Positions 10,314 through 20,519 of a DNA stretch of 64,000 bases are shown here, piece after piece. The DNA is taken from NCBI GenBank assembly GCA_016875875.1, contig VGOP01000002.1, positions 186,001-250,000 of the forward strand. Direction: 5' to 3'. Origin of the DNA: Chloroflexota bacterium (GTDB lineage: Bacteria > Chloroflexota > Dehalococcoidia > GIF9 > UBA5629). A program made the position numbers and the translations under genes. Every line of letters starts with the position of its first letter. Positions within the stretch are counted from its first letter, which is position 1. The notes beneath the pieces are model-generated. The model made no database searches and was not told the DNA's origin. It worked only from the letters and a program-made list of their open reading frames with translations.

Positions 10314-10420
10314 ATGTAGTTGCGACCCTTTAGGGTCGCCTCGCGTGAGGCTAAAGCCTCGTAGCTACATATAATTATCAGCGATAAAAGTGGGGGCAGA
10401 CCTCAAGGCCTGCCCCGCAT
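10314..10420. repeat. Short hairpins between acyl-CoA dehydrogenase and lipoprotein genes
   Basis: Three consecutive palindromes: GCGACCCTTTAGGGTCGC, GAGGCTAAAGCCTC and GGGGCAGACCTCAAGGCCTGCCCC-like arms. The GAGGCTAAAGCCTC type recurs near 17320, 52920 and 58940. They may act as bidirectional terminators. Confidence 0.6.
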
Positions 10421-11001: not shown

Positions 11002-12027
11002 CTATTTTCGCTTACTGCGTGCAGTACTTAGTTTGGGAGATTTAGCCTTTACTACCTGCTTTGTTTTTTGCTGCTTGCCTTTTGTTTTTGTTGCGGCCTT
11101 TTTTGTGGCTCGCTTTATCTTTACCGACCGAGTCGACTTTGCAGTCACCCTTGCCACCGCAAAGGGTTTCTGGAATGTAACCTTATCCTCTTCAGCTTCT
11201 TTAGAAGGCGTTGTTACTACTGCGTCATCCTTAAACAGAGGTCGTTTATCTAGCGGCATTTTTGCCTCATTAGCTTTAGTCCATTTTACCGCTTTCTGGT
11301 TATAGGGTTTCTCGAAACCATAGACTCGGTAGGTAATCATGTCTGCCAGGTGTGTAACCAGCCAGGCTATATCCAGAGAACTTTCCCAGTCTCGTTCTAT
11401 ACCGATGCAGACCATGTTGTTTTCCGGGCTGATATTGGGATGAAAATGGGGGGTGAGACACAGGACATAGGGTGCTTCGTTGGGATAACCAGGTATACCG
11501 GCTGGCAGATAAATCTCCATGATGTGGTTTGCCGTCAGGGTTGGCTTCTCGCTGGCAGGATTAAGCATTATGCCTTTGTATTTAAAAGTGACGCGGTATT
11601 TTGTGGGCGGGTCGCCCTCTATAGATTCAACCTCGATAAGGTCAGATTTGGCAGCTAGCTCCTTGAGCCATTCATGTTCTTGTTGCAGCCGCTTTTGTAA
11701 GTCGATTGTTTGTGTTTTCACGCCCGGCTGTATGAAATAGCACAGAACCAGTATCTCATTTTCAACGACACCGACTGAGGCTAGAGTCTGCCACGGGTGA
11801 AGCGTTAAGTATCGGGAGACCCCACCTCTTCTTAAATAGCGTCCCTCGGGATTCCGGTATAATTGCTCACCGGTCTTCTGAAGATAAGCGACCATTTGCC
11901 TCCCAGGTCCCCGCTCCTTAACTATTTGCGGTGTAATTTGCGAGAGCAGCCTTCCAACCGTGGCATTTTCGGAGACTAATGCCGGATAATAGCGGTCATG
12001 GGTGAAATCCCAGATGTATACTCTCAT
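11002..12027 (-). CDS. E2 ubiquitin-conjugating enzyme-like protein with N-terminal ubiquitin-like domain
   Basis: A 341-residue protein. Residues about 115-240 follow the E2/UBC fold: 'IMEIYLPAGIPGYPNEAPYV', the HPN motif (H196-P197-N198), and Cys207 nine residues later in 'NNMVCIG'. A Trp in 'RDWESSLDIAWLVTHLADMI' matches the conserved helix after the active site. Residues 1-102 resemble a ubiquitin-like beta-grasp domain: an opening strand, a helix near 24-37, and a final 'TLASVGVVENEILVLCYF' strand, but without a terminal GG. Residues 296-341 are an unusually Lys/Arg-rich tail. AAGGAGGTGG precedes the ATG. It follows the RING-like gene by 38 nt. It should accept a ubiquitin-like protein from the E1 at 12972-14168; the Ubl assignment is weaker than the E2 call. 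Confidence 0.88.
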   Translation of the reverse strand: MRVYIWDFTHDRYYPALVSENATVGRLLSQITPQIVKERGPGRQMVAYLQKTGEQLYRNPEGRYLRRGGVSRYLTLHPWQTLASVGVVENEILVLCYFIQPGVKTQTIDLQKRLQQEHEWLKELAAKSDLIEVESIEGDPPTKYRVTFKYKGIMLNPASEKPTLTANHIMEIYLPAGIPGYPNEAPYVLCLTPHFHPNISPENNMVCIGIERDWESSLDIAWLVTHLADMITYRVYGFEKPYNQKAVKWTKANEAKMPLDKRPLFKDDAVVTTPSKEAEEDKVTFQKPFAVARVTAKSTRSVKIKRATKKAATKTKGKQQKTKQVVKAKSPKLSTARSKRK

Positions 12028-12065
12028 TTAAGCCACCTCCTTCATTTATGTTGCTGGCTGAATTA

Positions 12066-12371
12066 TCAGGCCTCTTCTTTTGCCTTTTCCCCGAGTGGTG
12101 CCAGAGGGCACTCCCATGTGGTGCAGCCTCCATATTCCATCCAGCATGACCGGTGATGCACTGTGCCACACTTGGGGCAGGTGAAAGAAGGGTTTTTACT
12201 GCTGTATTCTTGTTTGCCGCACCAGAGGCAAGGTGTCTCCTCCACGTTTTTTTTAACTATCTCTTGGCTTGCTGGCTTGGCCTTGGTGTATCGCCGACGC
12301 ATTGTGTACAGGACTATGAAACCAATAACAAAGCCGGCTATGCATAGGGTGAGGACAAGCAATACCGTCAC
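12066..12371 (-). CDS. Membrane-anchored RING-like zinc-finger protein (E3 candidate)
   Basis: A 101-residue protein: an N-terminal transmembrane helix (about 3-23), a basic stop-transfer segment (RRRYTK), then a cytosolic treble-clef/RING-like finger. Zinc ligands are C48-x2-C51, C65-x2-C68, H72/H73, C76, C83 and C88, close to the prokaryotic RING families. It starts with GTG. It is encoded 17 nt after the zinc-ribbon membrane protein and 38 nt before the E2, the position expected for an E3 partner. A ubiquitin-ligase role is an inference from fold and neighbours; a non-catalytic zinc adaptor is possible. Confidence 0.8.
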   Translation of the reverse strand: MTVLLVLTLCIAGFVIGFIVLYTMRRRYTKAKPASQEIVKKNVEETPCLWCGKQEYSSKNPSFTCPKCGTVHHRSCWMEYGGCTTWECPLAPLGEKAKEEA

Positions 12372-12388
12372 GACTTCAACACCCCGCC

Positions 12389-12958
12389 TTATGCTACCTT
12401 ATGGCTCTCGTAAGCCCGATTGTATTTGCCAACGCTGGCATTAGCATCTATGACTTGCCAGACAAACAGGAAAATGTAGGCGATGGCTAGTATGGCAATC
12501 AAGGCGATGTAGGCGGATTCCATGTAGTAGTAATATGTAACGGCGCAGGCTATCAAACCACCAATGAGCGCCAACCCGGCAAAGAGAATGAGAAAACCTA
12601 TGGCTATTCTGCCCAGAATTATGTGTCCTAGGCCATGCAATCCGAAAATGCCGGGGATTACAGCCAGAGCCATGACTGTGTTCCCTGAGACACGGCTGTC
12701 GGGTATATGGATGTCACAGTATTGACACACTCTGGCATTCATATCTATTTCTTTTCCGTGCTCATGGCACATCCTTTTACGCCCATAGCGTTCCTCCCGC
12801 TCTGTGACTGCTGCTGCAGGCCCTACGGCTAATTCGCCGGCGATGACTTCTTCCTTGGTATACTTTCCGCAAGCCTTGCATTTGAAGTCGGCATTGTAGT
12901 CGGTAACAGGACCACAGCTAGGGCATAGACGGACTAGTCTTACCTCCAACTCTTCCAT
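12389..12958 (-). CDS. Zinc-ribbon multi-pass membrane protein
   Basis: A 189-residue protein. Residues 12-30 form a zinc ribbon (C12-x2-C15, C27-x2-C30), and a second Cys/His set follows (C64, H65, H67 region, C78-x2-C81). Three hydrophobic segments (about 95-115, 117-140 and 147-170) resemble TM2-type domains, including 'GLHGLGHIILGRIAIGFLIL'. GAAAGGAGG precedes the ATG. It is encoded 13 nt after the E1 gene and 17 nt before the RING-like gene. It is probably a membrane platform or substrate receptor for the conjugation enzymes; no catalytic residues are seen and no specific family is recognised beyond zinc-ribbon/TM2 likeness. Confidence 0.8.
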   Translation of the reverse strand: MEELEVRLVRLCPSCGPVTDYNADFKCKACGKYTKEEVIAGELAVGPAAAVTEREERYGRKRMCHEHGKEIDMNARVCQYCDIHIPDSRVSGNTVMALAVIPGIFGLHGLGHIILGRIAIGFLILFAGLALIGGLIACAVTYYYYMESAYIALIAILAIAYIFLFVWQVIDANASVGKYNRAYESHKVA

Positions 12959-12971
12959 AGTGAACCTCCTT

Positions 12972-14168
12972 TCATGTGAAATTTAATACTTTATCCCTGT
13001 CCGCGTCAAGTTCAAAGTGGGCCACTGACGCCATATTCCTTGCCGTGATAACGTGGAACGGCGGCACTTGCCCCTGGGACAAAGTCTTGTCCAGAATCCA
13101 TGGTGTAGCTTTGCTGATAGTGGATGTCATATCTGGCTGCATGAGTTTTTTGCATTTTGGACATCTTAGCTTGTCTGAGCTAAGTTTGTCGAGTCGTTTC
13201 AGAATCTGCCTAGAGTGACCGCAAGTGCAAGTCGCTCTGAAAACCAGGTCAAAATCCAGTTGTATAACTGCCCCGGAACCAAGTTTCTCTTCGGCCATAT
13301 TCAACAGTTCCCCGAAAGTGCTGTCGGCAGCGCCCCTTGCAGTACTAATAACGGATTTGAATTGATTATGGTTTAGGCATCTTTCGTTGAGGGGAAAGTT
13401 AGCCGGCAAAAACTCATTGGTCAACCCGTTGAAAACAAGGCCGCTGCCGCCGGTAATCTCATGCCCGTGGGTAAGTTTAAGAGCTTCCTGGACCTGGAGC
13501 CCGCCGATAATGGAGGCGATGGTGGGTGTTGTCGGGACTCTTCCCTGTTCTAGCTCCTCAATCGGTAGCAGGCAGGATAGGCGGCGTTTCATTTCCTTGT
13601 AGGCTTCCTTTGGTAGATTGCATTCGTAGCAGGCACCTTCACCGGGTATATAGACGTGGAATTCTCCAATCAGTTCCTGTATGCCGCCGTTAATCCAGGG
13701 CGTGCCCACCTTGAAGCAGGCGCGGTTGATAAAAATCCTAGCGCCGAAATTGTCCACTCCAACCAGAATGACATCCATATTGCGGAAGATGCCGAGGCCG
13801 ACATCGCTAGTGATATCACCACAAATGTAGGAAGCCTTGACATCCGGATTCAGCTCCTTCAGTCGCTGGGCAGCTACCTTGGCCTTTAGTTTACCGATGT
13901 CCTCAGCCCGGAACAGGACAGAGCGGGTAAGGTTGGCAGCTTCAACGACGTCAAAGTCAATTATAAGTATGCGGCCGGTGCCGACCAGTGCCAGGTTTTT
14001 CAGGATTTCGTTTCCTAAAGCTCCAGCACCGACTACCATCACCTTGGCCTTGGCCACCTTTTCCTGTTGCCACCAGGAAATCAATCTAAGAGTGTCGTAG
14101 CGACCCTGAATGGGGTCTGGAGTATGGCTAGGGTGTGAAGAAGCGTTCTGATTCTTCATCATATTCAT
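12972..14168 (-). CDS. E1-like ubiquitin-activating enzyme (ThiF/UBA family)
   Basis: A 398-residue adenylating enzyme. Residues 43-66 carry the nucleotide loop GAGALG. They are followed by 'DFDVVEAANLTRSVLF', the D-I-G-K-x-K-A helix and 'LNPDV', all standard for E1/ThiF/MoeB. C180-x2-C183 is a half zinc site. C199 in 'RRLSCLLP', upstream of 'PTTPTIASIIGGLQVQEALKL', is the candidate catalytic Cys. Unlike MoeB or ThiF, there is a roughly 130-residue C-terminal extension with a second zinc site (C314-x-C316, C336-x2-C339) and an end resembling an E1 ubiquitin-fold domain. The reading frame overlaps the JAMM gene by 41 nt. It should adenylate the Ubl C-terminus and load the E2. Confidence 0.9.
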   Translation of the reverse strand: MNMMKNQNASSHPSHTPDPIQGRYDTLRLISWWQQEKVAKAKVMVVGAGALGNEILKNLALVGTGRILIIDFDVVEAANLTRSVLFRAEDIGKLKAKVAAQRLKELNPDVKASYICGDITSDVGLGIFRNMDVILVGVDNFGARIFINRACFKVGTPWINGGIQELIGEFHVYIPGEGACYECNLPKEAYKEMKRRLSCLLPIEELEQGRVPTTPTIASIIGGLQVQEALKLTHGHEITGGSGLVFNGLTNEFLPANFPLNERCLNHNQFKSVISTARGAADSTFGELLNMAEEKLGSGAVIQLDFDLVFRATCTCGHSRQILKRLDKLSSDKLRCPKCKKLMQPDMTSTISKATPWILDKTLSQGQVPPFHVITARNMASVAHFELDADRDKVLNFT

Positions 14169-15789
14169 CGGTAGTTGAGTTTAAATTTTTGACCTTAAAG
14201 ACTAAGTTCTCACTGATTCCACTTCTTATTGTCTTGGATTTAAGGTGGAATACAAATTCAAATTCTCCGTTAGGCTTTAGTTCTTGAGCTTCGGGTGACT
14301 CCAAAATGGCAAACACTGCGCTGGAATCGATTGAAACCTCAACCATACCAGAACTATCTCCTCTATTCTGTACCAGAACTAAAACCTTCTCGCCCTCCCG
14401 TGAAATTTTCCCATCATCGTTTTCATCTTTTACAGAAATAATCTTGAAGCTCGGCAGTTTCTGCTCTGGTTTGGCCAACGGTTCGGTCACCGGAACGACT
14501 GTAACAAAAATGATAACCTCCTCAGTCTTTTTGTCACTATTGTAGCTAAAGAGCATTTTGTCTAGGTGGTCTCCCGGGCTGAGATCACTGCGCTTCGCCG
14601 TAACATTGATAGTAGCATTACCGACTCCAGATTCTTTATCCACCTTTATCCAGTCCGGTTTAGATGAGACGAGCCAGGAGAGGTTTCCGCTGCCGGTGAA
14701 TGATAACTGTAGAGGCATTGTATCTTTGGCTGCGCCAAAGAGCAAATACTTCTCAGAGACGGAGAGTGAGATGCCGGCTGTTGGTGTTGCGCTCGTCTCT
14801 GTCTTTCGCCACTCTGTAAGCTCACCGGTATTGATGATATATGCACTCAGAGTCCAAGGCTTCCCAGTTCCATCATTAGCTTGCAATTCCAAGGCGCCGA
14901 TGTTGTTACCACTATTCTCTTGTGGATTAGCTGTTGGCTGTTCCACAATTTCTTTCAAGGTGATGGGCAAGGATTTTTCTTTAGTCCAGGGCTTTTCCTT
15001 GTTCAGTGTATAACGCCAAACCTCGCCGTTATTTTGAATGAAATAATAGTTATATACCTCCCCTTTCTCTTCGTTACGGAATGGGACAGCAGCTACTGGA
15101 AAATCCTTGAATGGTGGTTGGCTTGCCTCCTTCTGTCCTCCTGGTAACCAGACGGTAAAGGCAAGTCCTATGATGATAAACAGAGCCACAAAAAGCGCCA
15201 AAGCCGGTATAAGGAAAGCAGGCATCTTCCTTTGCGGTGGTGCCATTTTCTCTGGCTGAAGTAATGGTTCTGGCTCATTAGACAGGACTTCATAGGTGTA
15301 GAAACCTTTGATCGCCTTTATTTCTGAGCTATCCCAACCGAAAAAGCTGAGCTCGTTTTTTATGGGGTCACATACAGCAGCCACATGCCACGGGTGTGAG
15401 AAAGCAACGCGATGGGAATTTACGTCATCATCGGACATGAAGGCGCCGAATCCGGGATGAGTGTGGTACCAGCCGACAACTTTCTGGTTGGGATAGTTTC
15501 TCTGAGCTGATTCTACGAGCTGTAGCCAGACCTCATGGGTGAACTGCGCCTGGGTTTGATTCCCGGGAGCAGAATCCGATTTAACAATGCCGACGATGTC
15601 AACCCGATATTTGCCAGTGCTATCTTCGGAGACATTGCCCAGAAGGATACCGACTATCTCTCGTTGAGGATTGGCTGCACCGTGGCGATAAATGGCGTCG
15701 TAAGCTTGCTTCTCTATGTAGATAACAACCTTGCTATCTTCAGGGCTTCCCCAGACCTTCAAGCTCGCCTTGCCGCTGATTCTGTTCAT
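14128..15789 (-). CDS. JAMM/MPN isopeptidase with transmembrane helix and extracellular BACON/CARDB-like domains
   Basis: A 553-residue protein. Residues 18-170 are a JAB1/MPN domain with a complete metalloprotease set: E44, H109-x-H111, S119 and D122 (H-x-H-x7-S-x2-D). This predicts a zinc deubiquitinase-type isopeptidase, and with no signal peptide the domain is cytosolic. A transmembrane helix (about 190-215) is followed by a large outside part: a beta-rich region (225-335), a BACON-like domain (about 340-433, with 'WLVSSKPDWIKVDKESG') and a CARDB/Ig-like domain (about 447-535). The start overlaps the previous stop (ATGA). The architecture resembles a receptor that could sense outside signals and control de-conjugation inside. 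Confidence 0.9.
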   Translation of the reverse strand: MNRISGKASLKVWGSPEDSKVVIYIEKQAYDAIYRHGAANPQREIVGILLGNVSEDSTGKYRVDIVGIVKSDSAPGNQTQAQFTHEVWLQLVESAQRNYPNQKVVGWYHTHPGFGAFMSDDDVNSHRVAFSHPWHVAAVCDPIKNELSFFGWDSSEIKAIKGFYTYEVLSNEPEPLLQPEKMAPPQRKMPAFLIPALALFVALFIIIGLAFTVWLPGGQKEASQPPFKDFPVAAVPFRNEEKGEVYNYYFIQNNGEVWRYTLNKEKPWTKEKSLPITLKEIVEQPTANPQENSGNNIGALELQANDGTGKPWTLSAYIINTGELTEWRKTETSATPTAGISLSVSEKYLLFGAAKDTMPLQLSFTGSGNLSWLVSSKPDWIKVDKESGVGNATINVTAKRSDLSPGDHLDKMLFSYNSDKKTEEVIIFVTVVPVTEPLAKPEQKLPSFKIISVKDENDDGKISREGEKVLVLVQNRGDSSGMVEVSIDSSAVFAILESPEAQELKPNGEFEFVFHLKSKTIRSGISENLVFKVKNLNSTTDEYDEESERFFTP

Positions 15790-17231
15790 CGGCCTTTACG
15801 CGTGCTCTTGCTTGGCTTCTTTTTTTCGCCCTTTTTACCTCGGCCCTCTTTACCAGTCTTTTGTTGAGCTTTCCCCTTAGCCGCACCCTTCCGTTTTTGC
15901 AGTTTCAGCCCTCGGAATTTTCCACCGGTTAGAAAGTAGGCGGCAACAAGGCCACCTATGACTCCGACGACCGCTGGGATAATCACCAGAATTAAGGGAA
16001 ATGGTTTGATAGACTTTAACTCCATCCCGTTCTGGTTAAGCATAAGTCTGATCCGCTGGCCACTCTGGCCTTCGATCCTTCCGCTCATAGTCACTGGCTC
16101 GAAGTACTGGTTGTTCAGGGTTGTGGCAGCGGCAACTGTATAGTCAGTGTTCTGAGCGCCCTGGAGTTCTATAAAATAGCGGCCGAACTCTGGTTTGGTA
16201 ATGAGGTACAGTTTCTTATTGTCCATATTGAACCACGGTGGCGATATCTCCTTTGATCCAAAGAGCAACTTTCTCGGCTCCACCGGCCCGTCAATGGTGA
16301 TACCAACGATATTCTGCCATGTGGAGTATTCCTTAGCTTCTGGCCAGCCAGGGAAAGCATCGAAGGTGAAATCAGATAAATCAATATCCGGTGGATAAAA
16401 AGAACGCCTCAGGGTGAAGTTAACTTCGGAAGCGCCGCGCTCGGCCTGAACCTGTACACTTTTGCCAGGCTGTGGTTCGCAGGCGATTGCATCGGCAGAA
16501 ACAGTTTCTGTAACCGTAGGTATCTGGTTAATCAAAGTGTAATTGTTGCCAAGCTGGTAGGAGATAAATTCATAAAATCCATCGTTGTTTGTTGTGGTGC
16601 TTTGCATAGTACTGGCAAGATAAACAGTAGCCATGCTAATCGGGTTCTGATTGGTGTCAGTGACGCGGCCTGATATGGACGCTGCCCGGCTGAAAACGCG
16701 AATGTCATACGAGGCATTGCCCGTGACCGTAGTCGCCTGGAGGCAGGGGTAAGTCTCGAACCAGCAATCTGAAGCAACACATACGTAGCTGACGCAACTG
16801 CCCCATACTTCCACTACGGCTTGACCCTCGCAGGTGAATCTTACCTGTCCTGGTGTTGATGGTGCCGACCACGAGAATGTATAAGTGCCACTTGTGGTGA
16901 AGTTGGCAATTGTTTCCTGAAGACCACTTGGAAGCTGGGCTAGCACACGAACATAGGTGTTGACTACAGATGTGCTGACGGTAATATTTACAGTCTCGCC
17001 GGCCAAATATACTGGCTTGTCGGTCCTCAGCGACAGTGAAAGATATGATGTTTGGAGAGCGATTTTGCTCTGGATAGTTTCTTCATTAGATAAAGTGGCA
17101 TTTGTAAATATTGGAATAGCTTCCTTTACTTGGAAATTTGAAGCAGTTACTTGACATGGCACAACCACGGAACCTATTGTAAATAAGCCCAAAACCAAGG
17201 TACCAGCTAGGATCAGCAGAATGAATCTCAT
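15786..17231 (-). CDS. Surface-exposed membrane protein with carboxypeptidase-regulatory-like domain and Lys-rich cytosolic tail
   Basis: A 481-residue protein with an N-terminal signal peptide (about 1-30). The extracytoplasmic part has an Ig-like region (about 62-135, 'DKPVYLAGETVNITV'), a Cys-rich stretch (C133-C163), a carboxypeptidase-regulatory-like fold (about 185-265, 'ISGRVTDTNQNPISMATVYL') and a beta-rich domain. A transmembrane helix (about 413-438) leads to a cytosolic tail of about 40 residues dominated by Lys, Arg and Gly. The first gene of the ubiquitin-like operon, it overlaps the JAMM gene by 4 nt and has a strong GGGAGGAGGG site. The tail is a plausible conjugation target; that is inference. 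Confidence 0.85.
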   Translation of the reverse strand: MRFILLILAGTLVLGLFTIGSVVVPCQVTASNFQVKEAIPIFTNATLSNEETIQSKIALQTSYLSLSLRTDKPVYLAGETVNITVSTSVVNTYVRVLAQLPSGLQETIANFTTSGTYTFSWSAPSTPGQVRFTCEGQAVVEVWGSCVSYVCVASDCWFETYPCLQATTVTGNASYDIRVFSRAASISGRVTDTNQNPISMATVYLASTMQSTTTNNDGFYEFISYQLGNNYTLINQIPTVTETVSADAIACEPQPGKSVQVQAERGASEVNFTLRRSFYPPDIDLSDFTFDAFPGWPEAKEYSTWQNIVGITIDGPVEPRKLLFGSKEISPPWFNMDNKKLYLITKPEFGRYFIELQGAQNTDYTVAAATTLNNQYFEPVTMSGRIEGQSGQRIRLMLNQNGMELKSIKPFPLILVIIPAVVGVIGGLVAAYFLTGGKFRGLKLQKRKGAAKGKAQQKTGKEGRGKKGEKKKPSKSTRKGR

Positions 17232-17482: not shown

Positions 17483-18265
17483 CTACGTGTTTAAGTTTGA
17501 GGTTCTGGCGGTTACGGCGGCGCCTAGGGCGGTGATGATTTGGGGTTGTGGGGGCACAAGGGGCTGTATATTCAATTCCTGCTCTACAGTCTTGACGAGG
17601 CCGGTATTGAGCGCGCCACCACCGCAGAGGGCGCATGGCTCCTCCAGCTTAATCTTCTTGACCAGCGATGAAATCTTGCTGGCTAAGGCTTTGTTGACCC
17701 CGGCGGCGATGTCCTCCTTTGGGATACCTTCGGTGACTCTGGTGATGGCCTCTGATTCGCCGAAGACAGCGCAACCGGTGCCGAAGGTGATTGGGTTTTT
17801 GGACTTAAGCGAAAGCGGGCCGAAATCTTTTAAATCTATTCGCAGTACGTTGGCAATGACTTCGATAAACCGGCCACTTCCGGCAGCGCATTTTTCGCTG
17901 ACGGTGAAATTGGTCACCATTCCCTGTTCATTTATCCGTATTACTTTGGTAGACTGTCCCGCCACCTCGATTGCTGTTTTGACCTGGGGAAAGATGCTAT
18001 TTATGCCTCTGGCAGTGCAGACTATGTCACTGACTTGTCGGCTGGCGAAAGCCACGTTGTTGGCGCCGCTGCCAGTGGCTACAGTATCGGCTATATCATC
18101 TTGACTCAGCTTAAGCTGTCTCAGAAGCTCCTGCCTTATCGTCTCTGCCGCTGTCTGGTAATTGGCTCCGGAAGGAATCACGCGGTAAGCGGCAAGCTCG
18201 GAATCTCTGATTATGACTCCTTTACTATATGCCGAGCCGATGTCTATGCCCATAAACCACATCAT
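17483..18265 (-). CDS. BadF/BcrA-type activator ATPase (second, BcrD-like copy)
   Basis: A 260-residue ASKHA-fold ATPase that activates 2-hydroxyacyl-CoA dehydratases or acts as an ATPase subunit of class I benzoyl-CoA reductase. It hydrolyses ATP to drive low-potential electron transfer. Phosphate-binding motifs 'GIDIGSAYSKGVII' and 'DIVCTARGINSIFP' are present, with the Cys ligands in 'EKCAAGSGRFIEV' and 'GTGCAVFGESEA' that bridge a 4Fe-4S cluster in the dimer. The frame is open to a TTG at 18277 inside a family C repeat arm; ATG 18265 is chosen as it begins the conserved N-terminus. It is the last gene of the four-gene group and is shorter than the paralogue upstream. Confidence 0.88.
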   Translation of the reverse strand: MMWFMGIDIGSAYSKGVIIRDSELAAYRVIPSGANYQTAAETIRQELLRQLKLSQDDIADTVATGSGANNVAFASRQVSDIVCTARGINSIFPQVKTAIEVAGQSTKVIRINEQGMVTNFTVSEKCAAGSGRFIEVIANVLRIDLKDFGPLSLKSKNPITFGTGCAVFGESEAITRVTEGIPKEDIAAGVNKALASKISSLVKKIKLEEPCALCGGGALNTGLVKTVEQELNIQPLVPPQPQIITALGAAVTARTSNLNT

Positions 18266-18277
18266 ATTAAAAATCAA

Positions 18278-18338
18278 AAACCAAAAATCAAAATGACAGG
18301 TAAAAATGCAAAAATGTTTTAATCACTTTTATATTTTA
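18278..18338. repeat. Family C AT-rich repeat arm
   Basis: Contains CAAAATGACAGGTAAAAATG followed by CAAAAATG, shared with other C copies. It lies between the two activator genes. Confidence 0.7.
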
Positions 18339-19232
18339 TTGTTGAAAGAAGGTAGCCTTTTCCAGGCGACGAGGCTTTGTTGGGATGGGCTCGCCCTCTG
18401 CCGTTGCTTTCATATAGATTTCCTTTGCCAGTATGGCAGCCCCAAGCGCCCCAGTTAGTAGTGGCTCTTCAGGGACGAGGATTTCGCAGCCCAAACTCTC
18501 TTTCATCGCCTTAACCATGCCGATGTTCTTGGCCACGCCACCGGTGAGCACTACATCGGGTTCTATCTTCAGCCGCCGTGCCAGTGCTGCCACCCGGCTG
18601 GCCAGCGCATCGTGGAGCCCAGCTATGATATCTTCCAGCTTTTCCCCGCGGGATAGCAGTGCTACCACCTCCTGCTGAGCGAAGATGGTGCATAGGTTGC
18701 TGATCTGGATTTTCTTGGTAGATTTCAATGCGATGTCTCCCATGTCTTCCAGCCTGATACCCAAAGTGGCAGCGGTGACTTCTAGGAACCTGCCGGTTCC
18801 GGCAGCGCATTTATCGTTCATGACGAAGTCGACCAGCTTACCTTTCTCTGTCTTCATACACTTGGCGTCCTGTCCGCCGATATCTATGGCAGTCCTGACG
18901 TTGGGAAACAAACTGGAGACGCCTCTGGCATGGCAGGAAAGCTCTGTTATCTGGTCGTCAGCAAAAGGGACATTCACCCGCCCGTAGCCCGTGGCTACGA
19001 TGTAGGAGATGTCGCCGAGCTGCAAATCGGCTTGCTCCAGTGCCATTCTCATGACCTCGTTGGCTAGCTGGCGATGCTCAGGTCCAGTAGGGCCTTTTAT
19101 GGCAGACAATATCCTGTCAGCTGTGTCCGTGAGCACCACCTTGGTCATGGTGGAACCTATGTCTACGCCAGCGAAATACAAGTTGACCTCTGGAGAAATG
19201 TTCTTAGCGGATTGTCTCAAGGAAGGCCTCAA
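18336..19232 (-). CDS. BadF/BcrA-type activator ATPase (first copy)
   Basis: A 298-residue activator ATPase with the canonical motifs 'GVDIGSTMTKVVLTD', 'DIGGQDAKCMK', 'NDKCAAGTGRFLEV' and 'NLCTIFAQQEV'. The two Cys (in KCAAGTG and NLCTIF) are the expected 4Fe-4S ligands. The 'DIGGQDAK' motif is intact here but altered in the paralogue at 17483 (DIEVAGQSTK-like), so the two are not interchangeable. The upstream ATG overlaps the preceding dehydratase gene by 29 nt; a TTG with an AGAGGT site about 14 codons later is an alternative start. Together with the dehydratase genes it would form an ATP-driven reductase or dehydratase system in the cytosol. Confidence 0.9.
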   Translation of the reverse strand: MRPSLRQSAKNISPEVNLYFAGVDIGSTMTKVVLTDTADRILSAIKGPTGPEHRQLANEVMRMALEQADLQLGDISYIVATGYGRVNVPFADDQITELSCHARGVSSLFPNVRTAIDIGGQDAKCMKTEKGKLVDFVMNDKCAAGTGRFLEVTAATLGIRLEDMGDIALKSTKKIQISNLCTIFAQQEVVALLSRGEKLEDIIAGLHDALASRVAALARRLKIEPDVVLTGGVAKNIGMVKAMKESLGCEILVPEEPLLTGALGAAILAKEIYMKATAEGEPIPTKPRRLEKATFFQQ

Positions 19233-20370
19233 CCCTGGTTCTTAATGGGGCTAAAGCTCCTATAGTGTAATCATATTCTATGTAAGTGCTGGGAATGCCG
19301 ATGCTGTCGAGGTAGTCTTTGAGCGACGGCATTTCGAAGGCAAAGGGGTCGCAATACCTGACTAACAGCAATACGGCGCCATTGATTTTCCATTCTCTGA
19401 CGATGCCCTTGAGGTAACCGAAGCGGCTTTGTATGTCTTTGGCATAGTCTTTCTTTGTCTCACCGATATTGGCTTGTCTGAAGGTGCGGGCGCAGGTAAT
19501 CTCCTTCATGTAGTAATCAGCCAGTCCATCCAATGGGTCAGTGGTCAGCTTTACACTGCCCCTGTAGGCTCTGATGCTGCCGCAACTCTCATCCATCACC
19601 ACATTTGCCTTAGCCTCAAATACCTGCATGACATCAATATCATCCAATGTACTGCTCCAGATAAGTAGACGCGCTGGCTTTTTCTTGGGGCCATCGGCGC
19701 GGTCCTTGACCTCGCCTATAACCTGCGCTAACAGGTTATTCCCTTCGGCTACAGGCAGGCTCATAAGCGCTTTTACTACCTGGACAAGCTCAGTGCCTGA
19801 GATAAGCGGTGGGGCTGGCTTGGTCAGCTCGTATAATTCCTGCACCAACGCTCGTTGTTGATTATGAGACTTAATGGCTGCCTTAAGCTTATCTGCGGTC
19901 AGTTTCTTTCCGGTGAAGGACTCCAAAGTCTTCTTGAAGTCATTCAATTGTGACTTGAAGTATTCAATGGCCTCGGGACGGATGGTGCTGGGCATATCTA
20001 TGAAGTGAAAATATGGGTAGTTGATATAAGATTCCCAGACGCGGGCTGTCTTTTCCTGAGGGTCGCTGGAATGGACGGTGACCATACCATCAAGGAAATC
20101 GTTTTTACTTTTCAAGGCACAATCGAGGCAGGTGCGCATAATAGGGCAGAATGAACTGGGCAGCGCTCTATCTGCCTCAGTTACCGGCTCTTTGATGTCC
20201 CCGCACGTCCGGTACGAGACGAGGTCTAGTGCGGTAAGCATTTCTAAAGGGACATAGACGCAGGGATAGCCTATTATCTTCTTGCCAGTTGCTTTGAGTT
20301 CCCTGACCCTCTTCGACCGGTTTAAGTAGATCTCCTGGGCTTTGCTCAGTCCTTGGCTTTTATCTGACAT
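19204..20370 (-). CDS. 2-hydroxyacyl-CoA dehydratase / benzoyl-CoA reductase subunit (HgdB/BcrC-like)
   Basis: A 388-residue protein of the HgdB/BcrC/BcrB family, which binds a 4Fe-4S cluster and catalyses radical dehydration of 2-hydroxyacyl-CoA or two-electron ring reduction of benzoyl-CoA. Conserved Cys are in 'SSFCPIMRTCLDCALK' and near the end in 'LLVRYCDPFAFEMP'. The frame opens at 20397, but ATG 20370 (MSDKSQG), preceded by AAAGAGG, is preferred. The adjoining activators and second subunit complete the system. Substrate cannot be told from sequence by eye; aromatic acyl-CoA and 2-hydroxyacyl-CoA are both possible. Confidence 0.88.
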   Translation of the reverse strand: MSDKSQGLSKAQEIYLNRSKRVRELKATGKKIIGYPCVYVPLEMLTALDLVSYRTCGDIKEPVTEADRALPSSFCPIMRTCLDCALKSKNDFLDGMVTVHSSDPQEKTARVWESYINYPYFHFIDMPSTIRPEAIEYFKSQLNDFKKTLESFTGKKLTADKLKAAIKSHNQQRALVQELYELTKPAPPLISGTELVQVVKALMSLPVAEGNNLLAQVIGEVKDRADGPKKKPARLLIWSSTLDDIDVMQVFEAKANVVMDESCGSIRAYRGSVKLTTDPLDGLADYYMKEITCARTFRQANIGETKKDYAKDIQSRFGYLKGIVREWKINGAVLLLVRYCDPFAFEMPSLKDYLDSIGIPSTYIEYDYTIGALAPLRTRVEAFLETIR

Positions 20371-20387
20371 TGCTGCAACCTCTTTTT

Positions 20388-20519
20388 GAAAAATCAAAGA
20401 TTAAAAACCAAAAATCAAAATTACAGATAAAAATGCAAAAATGTTTCTTTTTCAAGCGAACAAACATCAAAGCACATTTTCGTCTTTGACTTTTGATGTT
20501 TTATTTTTTACTTTTGTTC
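20388..20519. repeat. Family C AT-rich palindrome
   Basis: The left arm contains AAAAATCAAAATTACAGATA then AAAATGCAAAAATG; the right arm reads GACTTTTGATGTTTTATTTT. It lies between the two dehydratase subunit genes. Confidence 0.75.

Follow-up and report, generated by a model that had tools for sequence, protein, structure and literature searches.

Six minus-strand open reading frames occupy positions 11002-17231 of the window (the whole 64,000-nt stretch of Chloroflexota DNA that was analysed), all at the coordinates given by an earlier note made from the sequence. That note spaced the genes by 38 nt at most, which fits the gaps of 13, 17 and 38 nt and the 4 nt overlap of Surf and JAMM; the JAMM and E1 frames, however, overlap by 41 nt when E1 is read from its first ATG, or by less if its first residue is the Met four codons further on, as in the relative L125. 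A probable seventh gene of the operon, ORF142, is absent from the earlier note. The features are:

15786..17231, minus strand: Surf, surface protein (481 aa) with an N-terminal signal and a CarboxypepD_reg-like domain at residues 185-274
14128..15789, minus strand: JAMM isopeptidase (553 aa), with a JAMM domain, a helix near residue 196 and a BACON-like ectodomain
12972..14168, minus strand: E1-like enzyme (398 aa), with a ThiF domain and a C-terminal zinc-ribbon-like Cys set
13572-13574, minus strand: E1 Cys199 codon
12389..12958, minus strand: ZnTM, zinc-ribbon-like membrane protein (189 aa), with N-terminal Cys pairs followed by about three helices
12066..12371, minus strand: RING-like protein (101 aa), with an N-terminal helix at residues 2-30 and a Prok-RING_1 domain
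11002..12027, minus strand: Ubl-E2 fusion (341 aa), comprising Ubl, E2 core and Lys-rich tail
11722..12027, minus strand: apparent YukD/ubiquitin-like domain of Ubl-E2 (residues 1-102), ending I-Q-P-G102
11722-11724, minus strand: Gly102 codon, the putative processing site
11224-11700, minus strand: E2 core (residues 110-268)
11434-11442, minus strand: E2 HPN codons
11407-11409, minus strand: E2 Cys207 codon
10469..10897, minus strand: ORF142, with a signal/lipoprotein-like start, Yae1-like Gly repeats, CPECP and a Tyr-rich tail
10393..10416, minus strand: terminator-like hairpin of 10 pairs, 3' of ORF142 (such sites are not commoner in the region than in shuffled sequence)

The gene order, which the earlier note had proposed to seek in other Chloroflexota, recurs in four loci of the same family. 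Surf-JAMM-E1-ZnTM-RING-UblE2 is complete in G641 (L125), G658 (L154) and G652 (L152), and the same order is found in G640 (L141), an operon truncated on either side by the limits of its contig; G268 (L151) and G659 (L153) carry partial operons. Genes in the relatives were taken as the longest open reading frame from its first start, so that their starts are approximate, as are a few of the calls themselves. Between the window and L125, dN/dS lies at 0.10-0.36 for every gene. Because the order recurs in four relatives under these dN/dS values, the operon is real, far beyond chance. ORF142 adjoins the operon in L125 and L154 and is duplicated upstream of Surf in L152. Just upstream of the window operon, positions 17483-20397 hold two BadF/BcrAD-type activator genes (the first by Pfam, the rest of this segment by eye) and an apparent 2-hydroxyacyl-CoA dehydratase subunit, all suggestive of ordinary anaerobic metabolism. 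In two relatives (L125:764-3898 and L154:5277-8369), the interval from the BcrAD gene to Surf holds an opposite-strand gene of 1030-1044 aa, which is absent from the window.

The E1, E2 and JAMM assignments are supported. Each matched its Pfam family above the curated cut-off (ThiF 5e-56, UQ_con 4e-9 and JAB E=5e-14), so that an E1, an E2 with HPN and a catalytic cysteine, and a JAB protein lie together in one operon. The active-site residues named by the earlier note are correct: Cys199 in E1, H196-P197-N198 and Cys207 in E2, and E44/H109/H111/S119/D122 in JAMM. In homologous loci they are invariant in 84 of 84 E1s, 92 of 92 E2s and 109 of 109 JAMMs, and structure prediction (AlphaFold, high confidence) bore out the UBC fold of the E2; the two outcomes that the earlier note named as refuting its reading thus did not occur for E2 and JAMM. 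The best PDB matches of the E1 and JAMM are yeast Uba1 and Rpn11, respectively. The E1 falls within the ThiF/MoeB superfamily, which would also suit a sulfur-transfer or cofactor pathway without protein tagging; with an HPN-type E2 carrying Cys207 in every homologue, a JAMM, a RING-like and a surface protein alongside, and neither a sulfurtransferase nor a cofactor gene in the operon, we give that reading next to no weight.

The remaining enzyme class is less clear-cut. The RING-like protein matches Prok-RING_1 (2e-9; 37.5 bits against a cut-off of 29.1), and its ligands C48, C51, C65, C68, H73, C76, C83 and C88 are near-invariant in 100 homologues. Its predicted fold is a binuclear treble clef that resembles PHD, FYVE and RING domains about equally weakly, with no match under 1e-3 in the fold search. 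The RING call is therefore good by sequence and weak by fold, and the claim that all classes of ubiquitin enzyme are encoded stands for E1, E2 and JAMM and, by family match, for RING.

Hydropathy places membrane helices in Surf, JAMM, ZnTM and the RING-like protein, the four products expected to have them; by this measure the E2 lacks helices and the E1 has no convincing one. Positive-inside residues agree with the proposal that two products, JAMM and Surf, reach outside the cell. In the topology derived from them, the JAMM domain would be cytosolic, N-terminal to the helix near residue 196, and Surf would have a single helix near residue 414 followed by a Lys-rich cytosolic tail, which is less Lys-rich in L151 and L152. 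The presumed extracellular parts of Surf and JAMM contain the Pfam domains CarboxypepD_reg and BACON_2, respectively.

The modifier, overlooked by the earlier note, appears from the sequence to be the N-terminal domain of the E2 itself (residues 1-102), a divergent YukD/ubiquitin-like domain. Direct sequence searches of this domain against Pfam, NCBIfam and the PDB returned no significant match. It does align to the Ubl portion of fused Ubl:E2 proteins from Anaerolineae, and profile-profile comparison with 17 free Ubls of relatives, all 17 of which match Pfam YukD, gave 91% (E=9.5e-7, an E-value for the single comparison and not for a database). The AlphaFold model has the element order of ubiquitin, strand-strand-helix-strand and further strands, the last at residues 91-100. 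Foldseek matches of the full Ubl-E2 model were E2s and E2-like proteins only, among the 50 listed, and thus neither confirm nor deny a Ubl fold. A Ubl is the likeliest assignment, given the profile-profile match, the position of the domain, the order of its predicted elements and a conserved glycine.

That glycine is the most regular feature of the family. Of 86 free Ubls in the wider family, 77 have AG as their very last residues, and the others carry short extensions past AG, for example VAG continued by DQHGCPG, which suggests that processing is needed (extended Ubls include L016:6758-7030, L036:1042-1329, L030:4108-4395 and L099:7649-7975). The terminal AG supplies two of the only six invariant columns in the 17-Ubl alignment, and TAG stands at the junction in all 46 Ubl:E2 fusions listed (42 once duplicate loci are removed). 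The window Ubl ends in Pro-Gly exactly where the free Ubls of relatives end in Ala-Gly; IQPG is identical in 5 of 5 orthologues of this lineage, and the linker after it is variable. The parts of the E2 gene differ in dN/dS (window versus L125): the Ubl domain has 0.057, the E2 core 0.076 and the tail 0.45.

These features bear on whether the Ubl is ever released. It could instead be a permanent in-cis module that docks or regulates the E2 by binding E1, RING or JAMM, the real modifier being encoded elsewhere, such as a ThiS/MoaD or an unrecognised Ubl. The PG ending of the window lineage would fit such a module, as would the Anaerolineales, which have a free Ubl besides the fusion, so that the fused copy is not their sole source of Ubl. 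Yet every fusion keeps glycine at the exact C-terminal position with a variable linker beyond it, and a homologous JAMM, the Rpn11 of Caldiarchaeum, trims pro-ubiquitin, cleaves a linear ubiquitin-GFP fusion and reverses conjugation (PMC5654768). A search of the window's own genome with a window-type Ubl profile found the fused copy as the only copy, plus one further fragment at E=0.1 that is interrupted by a stop. Same-family genomes searched with the relatives' Ubl profile yielded nothing, but that profile also misses the known window Ubl, so its negative is empty and the window-type search is the valid one. A free Ubl elsewhere in the genome could be too divergent for detection. We regard an unreleased Ubl as possible, though on balance we lean against it.

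The earlier note took a version built around the membrane to stand apart from known systems. A scan of GTDB representatives does not support this: 232 loci encode a relative of the E2 (80 were kept), and most of those examined have a membrane helix on JAMM and/or RING. The hosts are Anaerolineae, Ardenticatenia, Planctomycetota, Armatimonadota, WS1 and Myxococcota, and include the cultured Leptolinea tardivitalis and Pelolinea submarina. Three operon types were distinguished. Type A (Anaerolineales) encodes E1 with a GntR domain, a RING with several helices, Ubl:E2, Ubl, JAMM, a helix-FHA protein and a VWA surface protein; type B (Chloroflexota) E1, Ubl, E2, a JAMM-helix-ectodomain protein, a second JAMM and one or two RING proteins; and type C (Planctomycetota) Ubl, E2, E1, a JAMM with two helices and a RING with a helix. 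As all three include membrane-helix proteins, anchoring is common to the wider family. The system is thus not unique, and the window operon is a divergent branch of this bacterial family. In a tree of E1 and E2, the scan loci from Chloroflexota form one group (98), with the window family as a separate deep lineage, although support is SH-aLRT only, from a short search, and the exact position of the window clade is unsure because long branches meet there. Given this separate lineage, the Ubl:E2 fusions of the window and of type A seem to have arisen independently.

Several further features were seen among the relatives. The GntR-type DNA-binding domain of type A E1s is N-terminal (e.g., L019:5027-6664). 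Type A proteins share a short basic-hydrophobic C-terminal motif (such as KPKIRLK or RIKLK), present in 38 of 40 E2s, 29 of 42 VWA proteins and 13 of 40 E1s against 2 of 824 background ORFs (examples are L024:6701-7549 for E2, L027:4691-5848 for VWA and L024:4164-5807 for E1); it is a possible docking or acceptor site, of which the window operon shows no clear instance. Just upstream of the type B E1 (e.g., L018:1396-5992) lie genes for dynamin-like GTPase (9 loci), ADP-ribosylglycohydrolase-like (13) and CAP-domain (8) proteins. Two Planctomycetota loci (L060:6657-7943 and L064:6531-7850) encode a protein in which Prok-RING_1, membrane helices and a trypsin-like protease domain are joined. 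A Crinalium epipsammum plasmid (NC_019754.1; L167:4233-7710) carries E1, two tandem Ubl-like genes, E2 and JAMM, one Ubl-like product ending EGGY and the other lacking the glycine.

The YukD matches of the free Ubls, the FHA and VWA membrane proteins of type A operons and a report that YukD is not conjugated (PMC1779556) would be expected of a secretion or envelope-assembly module akin to YukD/EsaB of type VII secretion, its Ubl acting non-covalently. The E1, E2 and JAMM active sites are nonetheless intact in all homologues and the C-terminal AG is conserved, while no secretion gene occurs in the operon or the neighbours scanned, Pfam finding neither a type VII FtsK/EssC ATPase nor WXG100 among the operon genes and their direct neighbours; we consider such a module very unlikely. 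Antiphage defence in the manner of BilABCD or type II CBASS, with phage or immune proteins as targets, is also unlikely. It would account for the patchy presence of the operon in 7 of 30 same-family genomes and of the system in 40 of 150 genomes of one Anaerolineae family, and the generic E1-E2 and JAB models of PADLOC match. PADLOC matched neither E2, Ubl, RING nor surface protein, however; searches gave no phage match and a single distant match to a plasmid; of the type A loci, 13 of 42 occupy a fixed chromosomal site, between nusG-rplK-rplA-rplJ and lexA; and the E2 has HPN, unlike that of Bil (PMC11354881).

We give an even chance to the preferred reading, in which the operon encodes a membrane-anchored ubiquitin-like conjugation and deconjugation system whose Ubl, made as an E2 precursor and cut free by JAMM, tags membrane proteins. 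The modifier would be the N-terminal domain of the Ubl-E2 precursor, and a JAMM cut after Gly102 would yield free Ubl and free E2. Residue conservation and the homologues suggest that E1 activates the Ubl C-terminal glycine and that the Ubl then passes from Cys199 to E2 Cys207. The membrane-anchored RING and ZnTM may hold E2~Ubl at the cytosolic face, with the RING-like protein as E3. In the weakest step, Ubl would be joined to lysines of membrane proteins; our best guess, made from tail composition, is the Lys-rich cytosolic tails of Surf and of the E2 itself, the latter fast-evolving. The Caldiarchaeum E2 modifies its own C-terminal lysine (PMC5654768). JAMM, anchored by its own helix, would remove the tag, and its ectodomain might, more speculatively, link removal to conditions outside. 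Proteasome families gave no match in 6 of 7 genomes tested, including the window's own; the match in the seventh, G658, was weak. Since the window's own genome yielded no proteasome homologue, proteasomal degradation is an unlikely fate. A bolder and doubtful version is transmembrane Ubl signalling, in which a membrane JAMM with a surface-sensing ectodomain frees the E2-fused Ubl for reversible, non-degradative tagging of the Surf tail, such fusions having two origins, one in the window lineage and one in Anaerolineales. If true, transmembrane tagging would be a means of controlling a receptor or scaffold at the cell surface.

A 2006 study described operons of bacteria that combine Ubl, E1, E2 and JAB (PMC1779556), and complete operons in some bacteria have been mentioned (PMC5654768); another study found no complete bacterial ubiquitin toolkits (PMC4327156), and bacterial homologues of human E2s have been noted as single instances in few phyla (PMC11354881). 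Literature searches of incomplete coverage returned no description of the window operon, nor of the AG tail rule, the Ubl:E2 fusions or the spread of the family. Whereas bacterial ubiquitin toolkits are often thought absent or sporadic, a coherent family is seen here at more than 200 loci, with E1, HPN-type E2, RING-like protein, Rpn11-like JAMM and AG-tailed Ubl, mostly membrane-anchored; of the genomes tested, most lack a proteasome. Such a family, with cultured members, makes testable both the role of Ubl tagging without a proteasome and the tagging of membrane proteins in bacteria.

Like the window, the Caldiarchaeum subterraneum operon encodes Ubl, E1, E2, a small RING and an Rpn11-like JAMM, and free Ubls of the wider family match its ubiquitin chain by profile; there, however, the ubiquitin is a free precursor with GG and a propeptide, and no membrane helices or surface protein are known (PMC5654768), whereas the window Ubl is fused to E2, ends in PG and has no free copy that was found, and the window RING is membrane-anchored. 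BilABCD shares Ubl, E2, JAB and E1 but has a two-domain Ubl (BilA), a CEHH E2 and no RING (PMC11354881), against a single Ubl and an HPN E2 here. Type II CBASS (Cap2/Cap3) uses the same E1, E2 and JAB chemistry, but its E1-E2 is one protein acting on a cGAS-like enzyme; in the window E1 and E2 are separate, and no CD-NTase or cyclase was found among the operon genes and neighbours scanned. Within the wider family, type A shares with the window the Ubl:E2 fusion with its junction glycine, a transmembrane RING and a surface protein with a cytosolic tail, and differs in its free Ubl, E1 GntR domain, helix-less JAMM and FHA and VWA proteins. Type B shares the JAMM with helix and ectodomain, RING-like proteins and an HPN E2, and differs in its free Ubl, second JAMM and frequent dynamin-like GTPase, ADP-ribosylglycohydrolase-like and CAP neighbours. 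Burroughs, Iyer and Aravind reportedly predicted bacterial YukD-Ubl/E1/E2/Prok-RING/JAB systems (Pfam PF14446) in 2011, with membrane RINGs beside E1/E2/JAB. The window resembles them in its Prok-RING_1 match, E1, HPN E2, JAB and membrane helices, and its relatives in their YukD-like Ubl; it differs in the E2-fused Ubl ending in PG, with no free Ubl found, and in the BACON ectodomain on JAMM, a surface protein and ZnTM of its own, and its deep separate lineage.
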